Source: Agromyces aureus
Lineage (GTDB): Bacteria > Actinomycetota > Actinomycetes > Actinomycetales > Microbacteriaceae
Reading direction: 5' to 3'
Length of the DNA stretch: 64,000 nucleotides
NCBI RefSeq assembly: GCF_001660485.1
Contig: NZ_CP013979.1
Coordinates: 2,604,001 to 2,668,000 of the forward strand
Part shown: piece after piece, positions 886-55,423 of the stretch
Position numbering within the stretch: position 1 is the stretch's first letter
Layout of the letters: each line of letters opens with the position of its first letter
Made by a program: the position numbers and the translations under genes
Notes under the pieces: model-generated
What the model was told of the DNA's origin: nothing
Databases searched by the model: none
Seen by the model: only the letters and a program-made list of their open reading frames with translations

Positions 886-1835
886 GTCGCCCTCCTCACG
901 CGTTCGGCGGCGCGCAGCCGCACGGGCTTCGCCCGCGGGTTCTCGACCTGTTCGGCCTCGCTCGCGAGTTCGGCGCCGCGCACGAGCAGCTTGAACTGCG
1001 GGCGGTGCTCGGGCAGTTCCATCGGCAGGTCGGCCGGAGCCGACGACGTGGAGGCGGCCTGCAGCACGCGCTTGACGATGCGGTCCTCGAGTGACTGGTA
1101 GGCGAGCACGACGATGCGGCCGCCGACGTTCAGCCCCTCGAGGGCGGCGGGCATCGCCCGCTGGAGCACCGAGAGCTCCTCGTTGACCTCGATGCGCAGC
1201 GCCTGGAAGACGCGCTTGGCCGGGTGACCCTGCCGCTGCACGGCAACCGGGGTCGCGTCGTGGATGATCGACACGAGTTCGGCCGATCGCAGGATCGGCT
1301 GGGTCTCGCGAGCCTTCACGATCGCCTTCGCGTATCGCGCCGAGAGCTTCTCCTCGCCGAAGTCCTGGAAGATGTGCCTCAGCTCGGACTCGCTGTACGT
1401 CGCGATGATGTCGGCCGCGGTGCGCCCGGTCGTGCCGTCCATGCGCATGTCGAGGGGCGCGTCCTTGGAATACGCGAATCCGCGCTCGGCGCGGTCGAGC
1501 TGCAGCGACGAGACGCCGAGGTCGAAGAGCACCGCGTCGACCTCGTCGTATCCCTCGGAGCCGATCGCCTCGAGGATGCCGTCGTAGACCGTGTGCACGA
1601 AGCGGGCGCGGTCGCCGAAGCGCGCGAGCCGCTCGCGGGCGATCCCGAGCGCATCGGTGTCGCGGTCGAGTCCGATGACCGTCAGCGACGGGAACCGCTC
1701 GAGCATCGCCGCCGTGTGGCCGCCCATGCCCAGCGTGGCGTCGACGACGACCGCGCCGTCGCGCCGCAGCGCGGGTTCGAGGAGTTCGAGCGTGCGCTCG
1801 AGCATGACCGGTGTGTGGATGCGTTCGATGTCCAT
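882..1835 (-). CDS. rsmH: 16S rRNA (cytosine1402-N4)-methyltransferase
   Basis: RsmH (MraW), 317 residues, the usual family length. It methylates N4 of C1402 in the 16S rRNA decoding centre using S-adenosylmethionine. It opens with HTPVMLERTLELL, the conserved substrate-side start, followed by the SAM-binding loop DATLGMGGHTA at about residues 33-43 and GLDRDTDAL. The downstream block VNEELSVLQRAM is also typical. The ATG at 1835 has GGAGG just upstream (about 1840-1844). It lies 103 bases downstream of mraZ and overlaps the ftsL-like gene by four bases, the standard mraZ-rsmH-ftsL-ftsI order. Confidence 0.96.
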   Translation of the reverse strand: MDIERIHTPVMLERTLELLEPALRRDGAVVVDATLGMGGHTAAMLERFPSLTVIGLDRDTDALGIARERLARFGDRARFVHTVYDGILEAIGSEGYDEVDAVLFDLGVSSLQLDRAERGFAYSKDAPLDMRMDGTTGRTAADIIATYSESELRHIFQDFGEEKLSARYAKAIVKARETQPILRSAELVSIIHDATPVAVQRQGHPAKRVFQALRIEVNEELSVLQRAMPAALEGLNVGGRIVVLAYQSLEDRIVKRVLQAASTSSAPADLPMELPEHRPQFKLLVRGAELASEAEQVENPRAKPVRLRAAERVRRAT

Positions 1836-1938
1836 GATGCCTCCGGGATCGTGTCCGACGGATTCCGATGCCCATCCGTTCGTCCTGTTGCGGGGAAGTG
1901 CAGCAGGCGCGTACGGCTGGGAGTCGCAACCCGTCGAG

Positions 1939-2370
1939 CTAGAAGAGCCCCGGGATCACCTCCTCCGCCGTCTCTGCGAAGGCCGCCTCCTGTTCGGCGA
2001 GGTAGGTCTGCCAGGCCGTGGCATCCCAGATCTCGACCCTGCTGCCGGCACCGATGACCGTGAGGTCTCGACCGAGCCCCGCATAGCTGCGGAGCGTTGC
2101 AGGGACCGTGATCCGGTGCTGCTTGTCGGGCGTCTCCGCGGAGGCCCCCGAGAGGAAGACGCGCATGTAGTCGCGCGCCTGCTTGCTCGTCACCGGGGCT
2201 TGGCGGATCTTCTCGTTCATCTGCTCGAACTCCCTGGCGCTGAACACGTAGATGCAGCGTTCCTGCCCGCGCGTGAGCACGAGACCGGTCGACAGTTCGT
2301 CCCGGAATTTGGCCGGAAGAATGACGCGGCCCTTCTCATCGAGCTTGGGCTCGTAGGTCCCGAGGAACAC
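1939..2370 (-). CDS. mraZ: Transcriptional regulator MraZ
   Basis: MraZ, 143 residues, first gene of the dcw cluster and in known cases a repressor of its own operon. It is built from two AbrB/SpoVT-like halves: DEKGRVILP near residues 11-19 and DKQHRITVP near residues 82-90. The second half has His where DxQGR normally has Gly. The start is taken as the GTG at 2370 because it gives the family-standard [14 protein letters not shown] opening and because GGAGGAAAGG lies at 2381-2390. The same frame stays open further upstream, but that part has no family match. Two GTGG boxes 10 bp apart lie at 2407-2423, the expected autoregulatory operator. Confidence 0.95.
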
Positions 2371-2406
2371 CGCACCACCCCCTTTCCTCCGACCAGGATC
2401 CAGGTG

Positions 2407-2423
2407 CCCCCACTTTACTCCAC
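2407..2423 (-). promoter_or_regulatory. MraZ operator (two GTGG repeats, 10-bp period)
   Basis: On the minus strand GTGGAG (2423-2418) and GTGGGG (2413-2408) are separated by TAAA, giving a 10-bp period, and end 37 bases before the mraZ start. MraZ proteins are known to bind direct repeats of GTGG-type boxes at this spacing upstream of mraZ. The match is by eye. Confidence 0.7.
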
Positions 2424-2669
2424 TCTCATCCCCGAAACAACGACATGCGGCCGATCGGTATGGAACAGCAGCAGAACTGCCCTGGAAAGACGGGCATTCA
2501 CGGCGTGGAGGGGTGTGGAGGGATTCGAGCGCAACGGGGAGCAACGACGGCATTCCGATCGTCGGATGCCGCGTGCGCGCGCCGAGGCGGCCGCACCGTC
2601 CTCGCCATCGAGGTCTCGGATCAGCCGCAGAACCGCCGACTCGACGTGCCGGGAGCCCGGAAACGACGA

Positions 2670-2698
2670 AACGGGCCGATCCGGAGGATCGACCCGTT
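2670..2698 (-). terminator. Terminator of the DUF3040 gene
   Basis: Arms AACGGGCCGATCC (2670-2682) and GGATCGACCCGTT (2686-2698) pair over 13 positions with one mismatch and a GGA loop. On the minus strand the hairpin is followed by a T-rich stretch TTTCGTCGTTTCC. It lies 25 bases after the stop of the DUF3040 gene and upstream of mraZ, so it should separate the two transcripts. Confidence 0.75.
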
Positions 2699-2722
2699 CA
2701 ACGGTGGAGGGTGGTGGAGGGC

Positions 2723-3112
2723 CTAGTCGCCGCGCTCCTGGCGACGGTCCCAACGCTCGTTGAGGCGGTCCATGAAGCCGGCGGACTGCTGGCCCTGCGT
2801 CTTGCCGGTCGACGGCGCACCCTCTTCGGGAGCCGGAGCGGACGCACCTCGTTTGCCCGGCGTGATCGCGACGAGCACGCCCGCGAACATCATGGCGAAG
2901 CCGAGGATGCCGACGATGAGCATCTGCAGCGCCACTCCCGCGATGAGGGCGCCGGCGCCGATCACGGCGAGCAGAACACCGAGCACGATCGCCCGGTAGT
3001 TCGGGCGTCGCCCATGACCACCTCCGACCGCATGCACGAAGTCCGCATCATTGCGGTAGAGGTTCCGCTCCATCTCCTCGAGAAGACGTTGCTCCTGCTC
3101 TGAAAGCGGCAT
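2723..3112 (-). CDS. DUF3040 membrane protein
   Basis: Protein of 129 residues of the DUF3040 family, found next to mraZ across Actinobacteria (the mycobacterial counterpart is Rv2169c). The N-terminal signature PLSEQEQRLLEEMERNLYRND is followed by a basic linker and two membrane segments (about residues 41-62 and 64-84). The C-terminus is a charged tail. No biochemical function is established for the family; its place beside dcw genes suggests an envelope role. It has its own terminator (2670-2698) and so is probably not in the mraZ transcript. Confidence 0.88.
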   Translation of the reverse strand: MPLSEQEQRLLEEMERNLYRNDADFVHAVGGGHGRRPNYRAIVLGVLLAVIGAGALIAGVALQMLIVGILGFAMMFAGVLVAITPGKRGASAPAPEEGAPSTGKTQGQQSAGFMDRLNERWDRRQERGD

Positions 3113-3186
3113 CTCTTTCCCCTCAGGCTCGGGACCGACGCATCCGTGCCCATTCTAGCGCCGCCCGGCCTCGCTAGGCTAGGCGA

Positions 3187-4299
3187 GTGGCTCAAGGTTC
3201 TCGACTGGTCGATCTGGTTCAAACGCGCATCGATGGGTTCCTCGATGACCGCAGCACCATTCTCCGCTCGATCGCACCCGAGCTGGAGCCGCTCGACGAC
3301 TTCTCAAGGCGCTTTCTCAGCGGAGGCAAGCGCTTCCGGGCCCTGTTCTGCTATTGGGGCTGGGAGTCCGTCGGCGGAAGCGGATTCGACCCGTTCGGCG
3401 ACGACGCCGAGCGCGACACCTTCCCGATCGTGTCGGCGGCCTCGGCGCTCGAGGTCTTCCACGCCGCGGCGCTCGTGCACGACGACATCATCGACAACTC
3501 CGACACGCGTCGTGGGGCACCGGCCGCGCACCGCCTGTTCGAGCGGATGCACGCCGATGCGGGCTGGCTGCGCAGCAGCGACGAGTTCGGCCGGGCGTCG
3601 GCGATCCTGCTCGGCGACCTCCTCCTCGGCTGGAGCGACGAACTGCTCGACGAAGGGCTCGACACTCTGAGCGACCGGGCCGCCGCTCGCGCGGCGCGTG
3701 CCGAGTTCATGCGCATGCGCACCGAGGTGACGGCCGGCCAGTATCTCGACATCCTGGCCGAGCAGTCGTGGCGCACGAAGCCCGATGACGAGCAGCGGCA
3801 GATCGCCGAGCGCGTGATCACGTACAAGGCCGCGAAGTACTCCGTCGAGTCGCCGCTCGCCCTCGGCGGGCTCATCGCCGGCGGCACACCGGCGCAGATC
3901 CGGTCCCTCCGCGACTTCGGGCTCCCGCTCGGCATGGCGTACCAGCTGCGCGACGATCTCCTCGGCGTCTACGGAGACCCGGCCGTCACGGGCAAGCCGA
4001 GCGGCGACGACCTGCGCGAGGGCAAGCGCACCATGCTCGTCGCGATCGCCAGGGAACGCCTGGCGGCCGGCCCCCGCAACCTGCTCGACGAGTTGCTCGG
4101 CGACCCCGAGCTCACCGACGAGCAGATCCGGATGCTGCAGCGGACCATCGGCGACTCGGGCGCCGTCGACGAGGTCGAGACGATCATCGCGGCCGAGGTC
4201 GGGCGTGCGCTCGCCGCCCTCGCCGACGCGCCGCTGAGCTCGCCTGCACGCTCCGAACTCGCCGCGCTCGCGACGACGGTCAGCCGCCGCAGCAGCTGA
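3187..4299 (+). CDS. Polyprenyl diphosphate synthase (IdsA-type)
   Basis: Trans-isoprenyl diphosphate synthase of 370 residues, which elongates allylic diphosphates with isopentenyl diphosphate. The first Asp-rich motif is DDIID at residues 99-103 (within LVHDDIIDNSDTRRG), and the second lies near residue 255 (QLRDDLLGVYGD). The conserved GGKRFRALF is at about residues 46-54. The GTG at 3187 has no Shine-Dalgarno, but TAGGCT (3175-3180) ends six bases before it, so translation is probably leaderless. Its place between the dcw end and the Rv2175c/pknL set matches mycobacterial idsA2. It is a different gene from the crtE of the carotenoid cluster; product chain length cannot be judged here. Confidence 0.9.
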   Translation: MAQGSRLVDLVQTRIDGFLDDRSTILRSIAPELEPLDDFSRRFLSGGKRFRALFCYWGWESVGGSGFDPFGDDAERDTFPIVSAASALEVFHAAALVHDDIIDNSDTRRGAPAAHRLFERMHADAGWLRSSDEFGRASAILLGDLLLGWSDELLDEGLDTLSDRAAARAARAEFMRMRTEVTAGQYLDILAEQSWRTKPDDEQRQIAERVITYKAAKYSVESPLALGGLIAGGTPAQIRSLRDFGLPLGMAYQLRDDLLGVYGDPAVTGKPSGDDLREGKRTMLVAIARERLAAGPRNLLDELLGDPELTDEQIRMLQRTIGDSGAVDEVETIIAAEVGRALAALADAPLSSPARSELAALATTVSRRSS

Positions 4300-4359
4300 T
4301 CGCATTCGGGCGGGGCCGGCCGGAGGCCGCGTCCCGGCCGTCGATCAGGTGGCGGTCGA

Positions 4360-4713
4360 TCAGGCCAGCGCCTGCGCGACGCGCCTGACCTCGGCCTTGC
4401 GACCGGCCAGCAGGGCCGTGATCGGGCTGACGCCGAGACTCTCGTCTTCGTTCAGGAGCCACTCCAGCGCCTCGGCGTCGCTGAACCCGCCATCGCCGAG
4501 CACCACGATCGTGCCGTGCAGCTCGGGCAACGGGTGGCCGTCGCGGATGAAGACCGCGGGCACCTTGAGCACGCCGTCGAAGCGGGCGGCGAGCAGATGA
4601 CGATCGTCGATCAGGCGACGCACCCGGCTGGGGGTCGAGCCGAAGAGCTCGACGAGGTCGGGAACGGTCAGCCATTCGGTCGCGGTCGAATCGGGCGCAG
4701 TCGCATCGGTCAC
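4360..4713 (-). CDS. Rv2175c-family DNA-binding protein
   Basis: Protein of 117 residues, similar throughout to mycobacterial Rv2175c. A helix-turn-helix region (LTVPDLVELFGSTPSRVRRLIDD) at about residues 15-37 is followed by the characteristic C-terminal core PAVFIRDGHPLPELHGTIVVL and an FSDAEALEWLL segment. In Mycobacterium tuberculosis Rv2175c binds DNA and is phosphorylated by PknL. The Thr/Ser-rich N-terminus here (TDATAPDSTAT) could be such a site. It is oriented against its neighbours, with the LysM gene between it and pknL. Confidence 0.85.
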   Translation of the reverse strand: MTDATAPDSTATEWLTVPDLVELFGSTPSRVRRLIDDRHLLAARFDGVLKVPAVFIRDGHPLPELHGTIVVLGDGGFSDAEALEWLLNEDESLGVSPITALLAGRKAEVRRVAQALA

Positions 4714-48340: not shown

Positions 48341-48385
48341 GCACACAGTGTGCCGGATGTCGCGGGTCGGCGTGAGGCCCGTGTG

Positions 48386-48420
48386 GAGGGGCCGTCACGA
48401 GGGGCCGTCACGAGGGGCCG
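48386..48420. repeat. Short tandem repeat, 13-bp unit
   Basis: Unit GAGGGGCCGTCAC occurs at 48386-48398 and 48399-48411, with a partial third copy GAGGGGCCG at 48412-48420, in the gap between the BASS and lipase genes. Confidence 0.8.
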
Positions 48421-48470
48421 GTCGTGCGAGGCGGTCGACCGGGTCGGCCGACCGCGCCGGATCGATCGGC

Positions 48471-52284: not shown

Positions 52285-53682
52285 GTGACCGCAGACGAGA
52301 TCCGACAGGCGTTCCTCGACTTCATGGCCGAACGCGGCCACGTGATCATCCCGCGTTCGCCGCTGATCCCACGCGACGACCCCACCACGCTGTTCACGGG
52401 CAGTGGGATGCAACCGCTGCTCCCGTACCTGCTCGGCGAGGAGCATCCGGCCGGCAGCCGGCTGGCCGACAGCCAGACCTGCCTCAGGGTGCAGGACATC
52501 GAGGAGGTCGGCGACAACCGCCACACGACCTTCTTCGAGATGCTCGGCAACTGGAGCCTCGGCGACTACTTCAAGGAGGAGCAGATCCCCCAGATCTGGA
52601 CCTTCCTGACGGAGCGGGTCGGCCTCGACCCCGACCGCATCTACGTCTCGTGCTTCAGCGGCGACCCTGCCCACGGCATCCCCAAGGACGACGAGGCGGC
52701 CGGGATCTGGACCGGTCTGTTCATGGCGGCCGGCGTCTCGACGGGCACGTTCGACGCGGGCACCGAGGAGCACGCGGCCGCGGTCGGCACCGACGGCGCG
52801 CGTATCGCGTTCTACGGCAAGAAGAACTGGTGGTGCCGCGGCGGCTCGGCCGACGACATGCCCGTCGGCGAGCCGGGCGGGCCCGACAGCGAGATCTTCT
52901 ACCTGTTCCCCGACGTCGAGCACGACACCTCCTACGGCGAGCACTGCCACCAGAACTGCGACTGCGGCCGATTCATCGAACTCGGCAACTCGGTGTTCAT
53001 GGAGTACCGGAAGACGGAGACCGGCTTCGAGGAGCTGCCCCGCCGCAATGTCGACTACGGCGGCGGCCTGGCCCGCATCGCGGCCGCGGCGATGGACAGC
53101 CCCGACGTGTTCCGCATCAACCTGCTCTGGCCGATCATCGAACGGCTGCAGGAGCTCTCGGGCCGTTCCTACGACGACGAGACGCGGGCGATGCGCGTCG
53201 TCGCCGACCACCTCAGAGGAGCCGTGTTCCTGGCCGTCGACGGCGTGCAGCCGAGCAACAAGGCGCAGGGCTATGTCATGCGGCGGCTGGTCCGCCGCGC
53301 GATCCGGTTCGCGTTCGACCTCGGACTCGAGGAGAACTTCTTCGCCGAGGTCGTTCCGACCATCGGGAGGATCTACGAGGCGCACTATCCCGAAGTGGCC
53401 GAACATGCGGAGTACGTGCTGCGCGTGCTCGCCAAGGAGGAGCAGGCGTTCCGCCGCACCCTCCGGAAGGGGCTGAAGCAGCTCAAGGCGTACCGTGCGA
53501 CGGGCGTCACCGGCACGGAGCTGTTCCTGCTCTCGGACACGTTCGGCTTCCCCGTCGAGCTCTCGACCGAGGAGGCCCATCGACAGGGCATCGCCGTGAG
53601 CGAGGACTGGCGTGCCGAGTTCGACGAGCAGCTCGATGCGCAACGGCTCAGGTCGCAGCGCGCGACGACCCTGCACGTGTGA
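52285..53682 (+). CDS. Mini alanyl-tRNA synthetase (no editing or C-Ala domain)
   Basis: AlaRS-like protein of 465 residues; normal AlaRS is about 880. Class II aminoacylation domain about 1-245: EIRQAFLDFM, LFTGSGMQPLLPYLLG, motif 2 HTTFFEMLGNWSLGDYFK (80-97), motif 3 NVDYGGGLARIAA (255-267). The tRNA-recognition domain runs to about 460 with YVMRRLVRRAIR. Asn325 (in QPSNKAQGY) and Asp418 (in LLSDTFGFP) match E. coli Asn303 and Asp400, which read the G3:U70 pair. The chain ends where the editing domain would begin, close to E. coli fragment 461, which is active. The alanine-pocket loop is atypical (NWWCRGG..., HCHQNCDCG). The GTG aligns with the canonical N-terminus. A tRNA-like minihelix RNA starts 77 bases downstream. 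Confidence 0.93.
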   Translation: MTADEIRQAFLDFMAERGHVIIPRSPLIPRDDPTTLFTGSGMQPLLPYLLGEEHPAGSRLADSQTCLRVQDIEEVGDNRHTTFFEMLGNWSLGDYFKEEQIPQIWTFLTERVGLDPDRIYVSCFSGDPAHGIPKDDEAAGIWTGLFMAAGVSTGTFDAGTEEHAAAVGTDGARIAFYGKKNWWCRGGSADDMPVGEPGGPDSEIFYLFPDVEHDTSYGEHCHQNCDCGRFIELGNSVFMEYRKTETGFEELPRRNVDYGGGLARIAAAAMDSPDVFRINLLWPIIERLQELSGRSYDDETRAMRVVADHLRGAVFLAVDGVQPSNKAQGYVMRRLVRRAIRFAFDLGLEENFFAEVVPTIGRIYEAHYPEVAEHAEYVLRVLAKEEQAFRRTLRKGLKQLKAYRATGVTGTELFLLSDTFGFPVELSTEEAHRQGIAVSEDWRAEFDEQLDAQRLRSQRATTLHV

Positions 53683-53719
53683 GTCGCCCGGTGGCCGATG
53701 CCTCGGCGAGCGCGTCCTC

Positions 53720-53749
53720 TTGCCCCGATCGCGATTCACCCGCTAGTTT
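53720..53749 (+). promoter_or_regulatory. Promoter of the tRNA-like minihelix RNA
   Basis: TTGCCC (53720-53725) and TAGTTT (53744-53749) are separated by 18 bases. Initiation 6-8 bases downstream would fall at about 53755-53757, leaving only 2-4 nt before the first base of the acceptor stem at 53759. This suggests the RNA is transcribed independently of the mini-AlaRS gene. Confidence 0.65.
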
Positions 53750-53758
53750 GGCCTGCAC

Positions 53759-53809
53759 GGGGGACGCGCACTTGAGGCGCCTCGCCAGGTGCGAATCCTG
53801 GGTCCTCCA
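53759..53809 (+). ncRNA. tRNA-like minihelix with alanine identity (G3:U70, A73)
   Basis: A 51-nt predicted RNA. The acceptor arms GGGGGAC (53759-53765) and GTCCTCC (53802-53808) pair over 7 bp with one wobble, G53761:U53806, exactly position 3:70. A53809 is the discriminator. The T-arm is CCAGG (53785-53789), loop TGCGAAT (53790-53796), CCTGG (53797-53801), keeping T54, C56, G57 and A58 of a T-loop. Only 19 nt (53766-53784) replace the D, anticodon and variable parts; they can form GCGC/GCGC with a 7-nt loop. CCA is not encoded (A is followed by CT). G1-G4 pairs and the 3' CTCCA equal those of usual actinobacterial tRNA-Ala. It is inferred to be the substrate of the mini-AlaRS just upstream. 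Confidence 0.8.
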
Positions 53810-53855
53810 CTGATTGGTTCGACGCGGACGGAACGGCGAATGACGGATGCCGGTG

Positions 53856-53903
53856 GTCGAACGTCTGCGCTGTCGAACCCCTGCGCCGTAGAACCCCTGC
53901 GTC
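53856..53903. repeat. Three 16-bp tandem repeats after the minihelix RNA
   Basis: Units GTCGAACGTCTGCGCT (53856-53871), GTCGAACCCCTGCGCC (53872-53887) and GTAGAACCCCTGCGTC (53888-53903) are perfectly in register and fill the space up to the stop codon of the Lrp gene. Function unknown; a regulatory or transcription-ending role is possible. Confidence 0.8.
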
Positions 53904-54374
53904 TCAGCCGAGCGGCAGCGGCGAGCGCGGCTTCGTGACGCCGAACGCGAACGTGGTCGTGATGCCCGCGATCGAGGGGATGGCGCGGAGCTGCGTTCGC
54001 ATCAGCTCCTCGTACTCGCTGAACGAGGCCACGGCCACCTTCGCGAGGTAGTCGTCGTCACCCGCGAGCAGGTAGGCCTCAACCACTTCGGGGATGTCTC
54101 GGAGCCGGGCCTCGACCGAGTCGACCACGCCGGTCGCGTGCGACGAGAGCCGCAGTCGCACGAACGCGGTGATCGCGAGTCCGACCGCGCCGGCGGCGAT
54201 CTCCGCCGTGTACCCGGTGATGATCCCCTCGTCCTGCAGCGCCCGTACGCGGCGGAGGCACGGCGACGGCGACAGTCCCACTCGGTCGGCGAGTTCCTGG
54301 TTCGTGAGTCGGCCGTCCTGCTGCAGTTCGAGCAGGATGTGGCGATCGATGGCGTCGAGGCTTCGCATTGGCAT
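53904..54374 (-). CDS. Lrp/AsnC-family transcriptional regulator
   Basis: Protein of about 156 residues. The N-terminal HTH reads LDAIDRHILLELQQDGRLTN, QELADRVGLSPSPCLRRVRA and EGIITGYTAEI, and the C-terminal RAM domain has VVEAYLLAGDDDYLAKVAV and IPSIAGITTTFAFG, which binds amino acids. Two ATGs (54374, 54368) are possible. The palindrome TTGGCA-N5-TGCCAA overlaps the start. It is divergent from the EamA exporter, the usual Lrp-exporter arrangement, so an amino acid export function under its control is likely. Confidence 0.92.
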   Translation of the reverse strand: MPMRSLDAIDRHILLELQQDGRLTNQELADRVGLSPSPCLRRVRALQDEGIITGYTAEIAAGAVGLAITAFVRLRLSSHATGVVDSVEARLRDIPEVVEAYLLAGDDDYLAKVAVASFSEYEELMRTQLRAIPSIAGITTTFAFGVTKPRSPLPLG

Positions 54375-54384
54375 ATTCTGCCAA
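54368..54384. promoter_or_regulatory. Palindromic operator of the Lrp gene and EamA gene
   Basis: TTGGCA (54368-54373), spacer TATTC, TGCCAA (54379-54384): a perfect 6-bp inverted repeat overlapping the start codon region of the Lrp gene and 65-80 bases upstream of the divergent EamA start. A typical position for an autoregulated Lrp-type gene. Confidence 0.6.
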
Positions 54385-54448
54385 ATCCAACCTGCCGCGT
54401 GGCACGATCGGCAATCGGCTGCGGCTCGGGATTTCCTATCGTTGCGGC

Positions 54449-55423
54449 ATGCGCGAGATTCCAGCACGACGCGGCCTCATCATCGGGGTCGTGGCCATGT
54501 CGATCGTCGTGCTGCTCTGGGCGTCGTTCGCGCTCACGCTGCGCGCCGTCGGAGGGTCGTCGCTGACGACGGTCGACCTCAGCATGCTGCGGTTCGCCAT
54601 TCCGGTGGCGGTGCTCGCGCCCTGGCTGCCGCGCGCCGTCCGCGAAGTACGGGCGGAGCGACCCGCGACCGTGCTCCTGCTCCTCGTCGGCGGGCTGCCG
54701 CACTTCCTCGTCTCCGCGCTCGGGGCCCAGCTCGCGCCCGCCGCCCTCGTGGGGCTCATCATCCCGGGGACGGTGCCGCTCTTCGTCACGGTCCTTGCGG
54801 TCGCGGGCGGTCGGGCGCGGGTTCCGGCGCGGCAGCTGACATCCGTCGCCCTGATCGTCGTCGGCGTGGCCGTCGCGGCGGTCATGACGAGCGCGACGGT
54901 GCCGCCGGTCGGGATCGGCGTGCTGCTCACCGCGGGATTCGTGTGGGCCGTCTACACGGTCGGCCTGAAGCGCAGCTCGCTGAGCCTCACCTCGACGGTG
55001 CTCGTCGTCTGCGCCCCCGCGGCACTCGCGGCCGTGGCGCTGGGCGTCTCCGGCACGATGCCCTCCCACCTGTTGGCGGGAACGGCCGGCGCAGGAGACG
55101 TCGTGCTCTTCGCGGTGCTGCAGGGCCTCGGCACGGGCGTCGTCTCGACGATCGCGTATGCGCACGCGGTGCGGGTGCTCGGTAGCGGCATCGCCTCGAC
55201 GGCCGGCGCCCTGAGCCCGGTGGCTGCCGCGCTGCTCGCGGTGGCGTTGCTCGGCGAAGGCCTCACGATCGGGCTGGTCGCGGCGATGGGCGTCATCGTG
55301 TGCGGCGTGCTGCGCTTCAACGCCCCGTCGCGTCGTCGACCTGCCCGTCGTCGAGCTGCCCGTCGAGCGGATGCCGCGCCGCGCCCGCCCCGCCACGTCG
55401 CCGCCTCGGTGCTCGGGGCGTGA
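54449..55423 (+). CDS. EamA/DMT-family exporter
   Basis: Drug/metabolite transporter of 324 residues with ten membrane segments in two EamA repeats. SIVVLLWASFALTLRAVGGS begins the first; LLTAGFVWAVYTVGLKRSSL the second, and GSGIASTAGALSPVAAALLA is near the end. The C-terminal 35 residues are Arg/Pro-rich. The ATG at 54449 follows TATCGT (54437-54442) by six bases, so it is probably leaderless. It is divergent from the Lrp gene, and the inferred substrate is an amino acid or derivative. The stop overlaps a GTG in the next frame. Confidence 0.88.
   Translation: MREIPARRGLIIGVVAMSIVVLLWASFALTLRAVGGSSLTTVDLSMLRFAIPVAVLAPWLPRAVREVRAERPATVLLLLVGGLPHFLVSALGAQLAPAALVGLIIPGTVPLFVTVLAVAGGRARVPARQLTSVALIVVGVAVAAVMTSATVPPVGIGVLLTAGFVWAVYTVGLKRSSLSLTSTVLVVCAPAALAAVALGVSGTMPSHLLAGTAGAGDVVLFAVLQGLGTGVVSTIAYAHAVRVLGSGIASTAGALSPVAAALLAVALLGEGLTIGLVAAMGVIVCGVLRFNAPSRRRPARRRAARRADAAPRPPRHVAASVLGA

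Follow-up and report, generated by a model that had tools for sequence, protein, structure and literature searches.

The window (the whole 64,000-nt stretch of Agromyces aureus DNA analyzed here) carries a gene for a 465-amino-acid protein related to alanyl-tRNA synthetase (AlaRS) at positions 52285 to 53682 on the + strand (PF01411, E value of 4.3e-106 over residues 5 to 460). The protein comprises only the catalytic and tRNA-recognition region of AlaRS, and we refer to it as mini-AlaRS. Converging on it from the − strand is a gene encoding an Lrp/AsnC-type regulator (53904 to 54467). Between the mini-AlaRS stop (53682) and the 3′ end of the regulator gene, 76 nt from the end of mini-AlaRS, lies a 51-nt tRNA-like element without an anticodon (53759 to 53809, + strand), recognized from its sequence, fold, and covariation. 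A promoter-like box on the same strand, TTGCCC-18-TAGTTT (53720 to 53749), ends 9 nt before the element, just as an initial annotation of this DNA had described. A strict scan of 53500 to 54000 for promoters and terminators found nothing, and a scan of the locus recognized no terminator after the element.

The element opens with the 5′ strand of an acceptor stem, GGGGGAC (53759 to 53765), in which G3 pairs with U70. Directly below the acceptor stem is a D-like arm with a 4-bp stem and a 7-nt loop, GCGC-ACTTGAG-GCGC (53766 to 53780), followed by a 4-nt linker (CTCG), a T arm, CCAGG-TGCGAAT-CCTGG (53785 to 53801), and the 3′ strand of the acceptor stem, GTCCTCC, with the discriminator A73 (53802 to 53809); all parts are on the + strand, and CTG, not CCA, comes next. 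An anticodon arm and nucleotides 8-9 are absent. The initial annotation had proposed an autonomous minihelix with alanine identity elements, and its 7-bp acceptor stem, 5-bp T stem, 7-nt T loop, and 19-nt insert, along with G:U at 3:70 and the A discriminator, are where it placed them. The acceptor and T arms of that proposal stand, but the minihelix is not bare, as the 19-nt insert begins with the D-like arm, which the annotation missed. The minimum-energy fold of the window copy is the three-arm fold including the D-like stem (ensemble frequency of 0.19; the centroid differs), at an energy that is unremarkable (z score of −1.72, with 14 of 200 shuffles folding equally well or better). When 14 sequences of this type were folded singly, the three-arm fold was the minimum in 10, and another fold was preferred in L103, L107, L120, and L123.

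Known RNA models do not recognize the element. ARAGORN did not report it in the window, Rfam did not report it either at the gathering score or in a lax search of the locus, and a whole-genome search with the tRNA model RF00005 returned 50 loci, the element not among them. Neither ARAGORN nor Rfam found a tmRNA in the window. ARAGORN did call, at 48352 to 48445, an untyped tRNA whose anticodon has four letters; this call overlaps long open frames and is probably false. A bare descriptor of the element (7 bp plus 5 bp, with G3:U70 and A73) is not rare: it matched twice in the window, against a chance expectation of 0.87 on average and 4 at most in 30 first-order Markov resamplings. Requiring a tRNA-like T loop and a D stem as well left one match in the window and none in the 30 resamplings. 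As far as sequence comparison can tell, the element is more than a product of chance, and the proof lies in the comparative evidence, not in the fold energy or the bare descriptor.

The same anticodon-less architecture was found in 15 actinobacterial genomes, one of them with a degenerate copy, at 17 loci in all, and it spans at least four actinobacterial families. Searching 299 Microbacteriaceae genomes with an acceptor pattern gave 8 matches in 6 genomes, while a reversed control pattern matched in 2 of the 299. Structural scans near relatives of mini-AlaRS yielded two Pseudonocardia RNAs, for which G3:U70 and A73 were required and the acceptor sequence was left free, and a Williamsia RNA, for which neither G3:U70 nor A73 was required. 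Covariance models added Subtercola (G304, at the same coordinates as in G203), G016 with two copies, G034, G055, G314 (from another family), and the degenerate copy in G007, which scores 37 bits and has broken pairs. Two slightly different copies occur together in both Williamsia (L120 and L123) and G016 (L148 and L150). In G188, four pieces of mini-AlaRS are spread over contigs C1, C3, C5, and C18, three of them at contig ends, together with two identical RNA copies, as would be expected if a segment had been duplicated and the assembly broke there.

The RNA was unmatched in 16 of the 22 Microbacteriaceae with mini-AlaRS and in Rhodococcoides, Rhodococcus, Brachybacterium, and Brevibacterium, in model searches that scored 74 to 150 of some 1,000 to 4,500 first-look candidates per genome, so that diverged copies could be missed. 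Local structure searches around mini-AlaRS in these four genera and in Subtercola gave nothing convincing. A survey of the phylum placed the RNA in at least 2 of 396 genomes, including the window's own, a lower bound given that 14 candidates were scored per genome. Several matches were set aside. Among viral contigs, 19 stretches fit the acceptor pattern with only 0 to 4 of 5 T-stem pairs and were treated as chance; a match in contig C113 of G194 had no T arm by eye and was not reported by the covariance model. The best nonmember of model R1 scored 29.5 bits (L124, on contig C80 of G194), followed by two at 24 and 22.5 bits; L124 and L122 were not counted as members. Five matches to model R3 at 23 to 24 bits resemble ordinary tRNAs by eye, except that L173 looks like the 3′ part of a tRNA. 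On plasmids, 135 records contained AlaRS-like matches, every one below 60% identity.

We aligned 13 distinct sequences from 11 genomes (alignment A3), leaving out the G314 and G007 copies; G188 and G300 add no further rows, as their copies duplicate sequences already present. Pairing is kept in 207 of 208 cells, and of the 16 pairs, 11 have double changes (acceptor stem, 3 of 7; D-like stem, 4 of 4; T stem, 4 of 5). Sliding the pairing partners by 1 to 3 columns lowers pairing to 38 to 61%. In a test of 500 shuffles, which ignores the relatedness of the sequences, no shuffle attained the value of the alignment on four of five covariation measures; on the remaining one, further pair types, 23 did. 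Pairs 5:68, 6:67, and 7:66 change in compensation while 3:70 remains G:U and position 73 remains A in all 13 sequences. The searches behind most rows used patterns or models that favor G3:U70 and A73, whereas the search behind the Williamsia rows required neither; rows from the pattern search have an acceptor fixed by construction, and model-found rows lean toward the model. The acceptor sequence was left free in the searches that yielded the Williamsia and Pseudonocardia rows, and G034 and G016 have acceptors that differ from the pattern. Total length varies from 51 to 53 nt, and the linker between the D-like and T arms is 4 to 5 nt in every sequence. Furthermore, G at T-loop position 2 (four sequences) goes with a D loop ending in GAG or AAG, and U at that position (nine sequences) goes with one ending in GGG, a joint variation that suggests an elbow contact between the two loops and may reflect a single event. 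The conserved stems, compensatory changes, and invariant G3:U70 that the initial annotation expected among relatives were thus all found. The covariation in this alignment is that of a tRNA that has the acceptor, D-like, and T arms but no anticodon arm.

Expression signals recur at other loci. The best-scoring −10-like box ends 9 to 11 nt upstream of the RNA at 10 of 17 loci, including the window, is absent at three, and lies at other distances in four; when positions were drawn at random from these loci 2,000 times, 2.7% of the draws scored at least as high as the observed median. T runs follow a hairpin-like stretch at L123 and L174. The element is likely transcribed as an RNA. A tRNA-like 3′ end could also mark a decayed 3′ tRNA fragment or the attachment-site scar of an integrated element, and a site syntenic to the window that lacks the element would fit this origin. 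In G142, the closest relative with mini-AlaRS (87% identical), the flanking genes match those of the window, but the stretch corresponding to 53683 to 53903 of the window is a short gap without the RNA (L151, 7301 to 7400). However, compensatory changes in all three helices, including the acceptor 5′ strand and the D-like stem, which a 3′ fragment would not contain, contradict this explanation; the single architecture kept across families and the promoter-like box at similar spacing also count against it, and we consider it highly improbable. Since in G194 the RNA lies on the opposite side of mini-AlaRS relative to the window, and it is missing altogether from G142, the RNA seems to have been gained, lost, or moved as a unit.

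The RNA might instead be a regulatory or decoy mimic of tRNA that binds mini-AlaRS, an MprF-type enzyme, or an esterase, or that reports alanine charging, without donating alanine. Its own promoter-like box, the window copy without an encoded CCA, and the occurrence of the RNA without mini-AlaRS in some genomes would suit such a role. A CCA encoded at 10 of 17 loci and the invariance of A73 and G3:U70 fit an acceptor better, however, and we regard a mimic as unlikely. These features predict, from sequence, that the RNA is an alanine acceptor charged by AlaRS.

The window's genome encodes a separate canonical AlaRS that is 44% identical to mini-AlaRS. Residues N325 and D418 of mini-AlaRS align with N303 and D400 of E. 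coli AlaRS, which read G3:U70 (PMC10036535); all 22 aligned mini-AlaRSs have both residues, as does the canonical AlaRS. Mini-AlaRS has the catalytic domain of a class II AlaRS as well as the Asn and Asp that read G3:U70. These residues are not decisive, because a viral mini-AlaRS is described as specific for G3:U70 without them (PMC10036535). The same paper describes poor binding of tRNA-Ala and micro-Ala by a fragment of E. coli AlaRS comparable in extent, as well as charging of G3:U70 micro- or minihelices by the viral mini-AlaRS and a truncated Aquifex AlaRS (PMC10036535). In a tree of 38 sequences, in which the canonical AlaRS forms a long branch and the deep root is unsure, actinobacterial mini-AlaRSs form two groups inside Saccharibacteria-type AlaRS, whose members are mostly 626 to 660 amino acids long, and genomes carrying the RNA fall in both groups. 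This topology suggests two acquisitions from Saccharibacteria-like AlaRS, each followed by loss of the C-terminal part.

We asked how closely the RNA and mini-AlaRS travel together. By the strict pattern, the RNA occurs in 4 of 22 genomes with mini-AlaRS versus 2 of 277 without (P = 0.0003, relatedness ignored), and one of the two exceptions, G188, has mini-AlaRS fragments. By model, in a set of 80 genomes made up of the 22 that have mini-AlaRS, two in which the RNA was already known, and 56 more taken mostly in the order of their handles, the figures are 6 of 22 versus 5 of 58 (P = 0.06, relatedness ignored), so that here the two do not clearly co-occur; these scans scored only part of the candidates in each genome. 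The RNA is found without mini-AlaRS in G016, G034, G055, and G066, and in Subtercola it is located on a different contig from mini-AlaRS. The matching synthetase that the initial annotation saw beside the element is therefore present in the window, but across genomes it is a frequent companion rather than an obligate one.

The gene neighborhoods of the RNA point to a further set of partners. At four loci outside the window, the RNA is clustered with a PF00756-type esterase, a PF09924 synthase, and mini-AlaRS. The order is RNA, esterase, LPG_synthase_C enzyme, and convergent mini-AlaRS in Williamsia (L003); esterase, LPG_synthase_C enzyme, RNA, and convergent mini-AlaRS in two Pseudonocardia (L009 and L012); and divergent RNA, esterase, LPG_synthase_C enzyme, and a mini-AlaRS cut by the contig end in G188 (contig C18). 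The RNA adjoins the esterase at 0.1 to 1.6 kb in G066, G073, G188 (contig C1), and G274 and lies within 112 nt of mini-AlaRS in G000 and G194. Altogether, one or more of the three genes adjoin the RNA at 10 of 17 loci, and none does at the other 7; the flanks of these bare loci covered 13.5-kb stretches for G016, G034, and G055 and 1.5 kb for three others, and antisense open reading frames (ORFs) were left out of the neighborhood analysis. The predicted esterase is a 428- to 557-amino-acid ORF product common to eight RNA-bearing stretches, with a GxSxG motif and, early in the part that can be aligned, hydrophobic segments; six of the eight products were scanned, and each matched PF00756. It was matched in 12 of 14 genomes searched, once weakly, with no match in G194, which carries both the RNA and mini-AlaRS. 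Because its relatives are widespread (1,494 proteins), the esterase is not specific to the RNA. In the window's genome, the synthase (C1:4105372) and esterases are present far from the RNA.

LPG_synthase_C enzymes were found in 46 of the 80 genomes, including 19 of 53 that have neither the RNA nor mini-AlaRS. They are present in 22 of 22 genomes with mini-AlaRS versus 24 of 58 without (P = 3.5e-7, relatedness ignored) and in 11 of 11 with the RNA versus 35 of 69 without (P = 0.0019, relatedness ignored), a count that includes G007 with its weak copy and excludes G314. In 7 of the 22 Microbacteriaceae, mini-AlaRS is directly beside the LPG_synthase_C gene. Genomes of Brachybacterium and Brevibacterium that carry mini-AlaRS had no LPG_synthase_C that we could find, and mini-AlaRS possibly has another use there. 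In these genera, mini-AlaRS follows genes for a ribonucleotide-reductase small chain and an FMN reductase (L021, 3027 to 6392; L022, 3155 to 6413).

Given the recurring theme of lipid aminoacylation among the neighbors and in the MprF literature, we propose that the RNA carries alanine specifically for the alanylation of membrane lipids, a role that we consider the best explanation, with a probability of roughly 0.55. The element would be transcribed, and CCA would be added to the window copy. Mini-AlaRS, or the canonical AlaRS where mini-AlaRS is absent, would charge the RNA with alanine; an LPG_synthase_C (MprF-type) enzyme would then take the alanine from the Ala-RNA and alanylate membrane lipids, and the esterase would remove it from the lipid, reversing the modification. 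In genomes that have mini-AlaRS but not the RNA, the enzyme would have to rely on ordinary tRNA-Ala or on an RNA that escaped the searches. We infer the transfer of RNA-borne alanine to lipid, and its reversal, in part from known systems: MprF1 recognizes an Ala minihelix (PMC4052509), MprF homologues of corynebacteria produce both Ala-DAG and Ala-PG (PMC10580965), and a lysyl-lipid hydrolase is known in an operon with its synthase (AcvB/LpiA; PMC13197417). A pesT gene is named in Corynebacterium glutamicum (PMC10580965), and from its name we would guess at a parallel with the esterase here.

Alternatively, the RNA may be a genuine alanine-accepting mini-tRNA that is only partly linked to MprF and whose alanine is bound elsewhere, for a peptidoglycan bridge, a natural product, or a carrier protein. 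The seven loci with none of the three genes in their flanks and the Brachybacterium and Brevibacterium genomes described above are consistent with another destination, and AlaRS-like enzymes do serve other pathways, as in AcmF (PMC12945691) and carrier-protein ligases (PMC9437257). We nevertheless find this destination doubtful, given the LPG_synthase_C enzyme in every RNA-bearing genome of the 80-genome set and the recurring clusters of RNA, esterase, and synthase. If lipid alanylation is the correct reading, as we think somewhat more probable than its opposite, the element would represent a new class of RNA, a natural tRNA minus its anticodon arm that acts as a carrier only and, together with a dedicated mini-synthetase and lipid transferase, provides a private route for alanine outside translation. 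Having no anticodon, the charged RNA could not take part in decoding, which would keep its alanine for lipids. It has been asked how aminoacyl-tRNAs come to be diverted away from translation (PMC4052509), and a carrier physically unable to decode would be a direct answer to how amino acids are set aside from protein synthesis. Such an RNA would also provide a present-day counterpart to the minihelix that has been proposed for the early evolution of tRNA. Among the papers listed in full-text searches of an open-access library, beyond which most subscription papers lie, none described such an RNA.

Canonical tRNA-Ala has an acceptor stem with G3:U70 and A73, D and T arms, and a 3′ CCA, and the tRNA-like domain of tmRNA also has G3:U70. 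The element shares with tRNA-Ala the 7-bp acceptor stem, G3:U70, A73, and the D and T arms, along with an encoded 3′ CCA at the 10 loci noted above, the window not among them; however, it lacks the anticodon arm and nucleotides 8-9 and is passed over by RF00005 and ARAGORN. From tmRNA it differs in having no mRNA-like tag region, at a total of 51 to 53 nt, and in its paired D-like stem. Since it has neither an anticodon arm nor a tag region, we file it neither as tRNA nor as tmRNA. The tRNA-like domain of tmRNA is a natural alanine acceptor, as the element is predicted to be, and resembles a tRNA reduced to its upper half, the anticodon half being absent (PMC3985003, PMC3929946). Minihelix-Ala and microhelix-Ala likewise pair an acceptor with a T arm and are charged by truncated AlaRS (PMC10036535), but they are laboratory constructs, whereas the element is encoded in genomes, constrained in its pairing, and equipped with a D-like arm. 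Among enzymes, mini-AlaRS resembles that of Tupanvirus, which has no editing or C-Ala domains and charges micro-Ala (PMC10036535), but it is bacterial, related to Saccharibacteria AlaRS, keeps the Asn and Asp residues, and has a linked RNA. Similarly, LysX, an MprF fused to LysRS that carries its own LysRS domain, ties lipid aminoacylation to a dedicated synthetase, and C. glutamicum AlaDAGS uses alanine for it (PMC10580965). An LPG_synthase_C enzyme is present in the window's genome, but the synthetase here is a separate AlaRS-type protein accompanied by a dedicated encoded RNA. By analogy with these systems, the element would work most like the tRNA-like half of tmRNA or the laboratory Ala minihelix.
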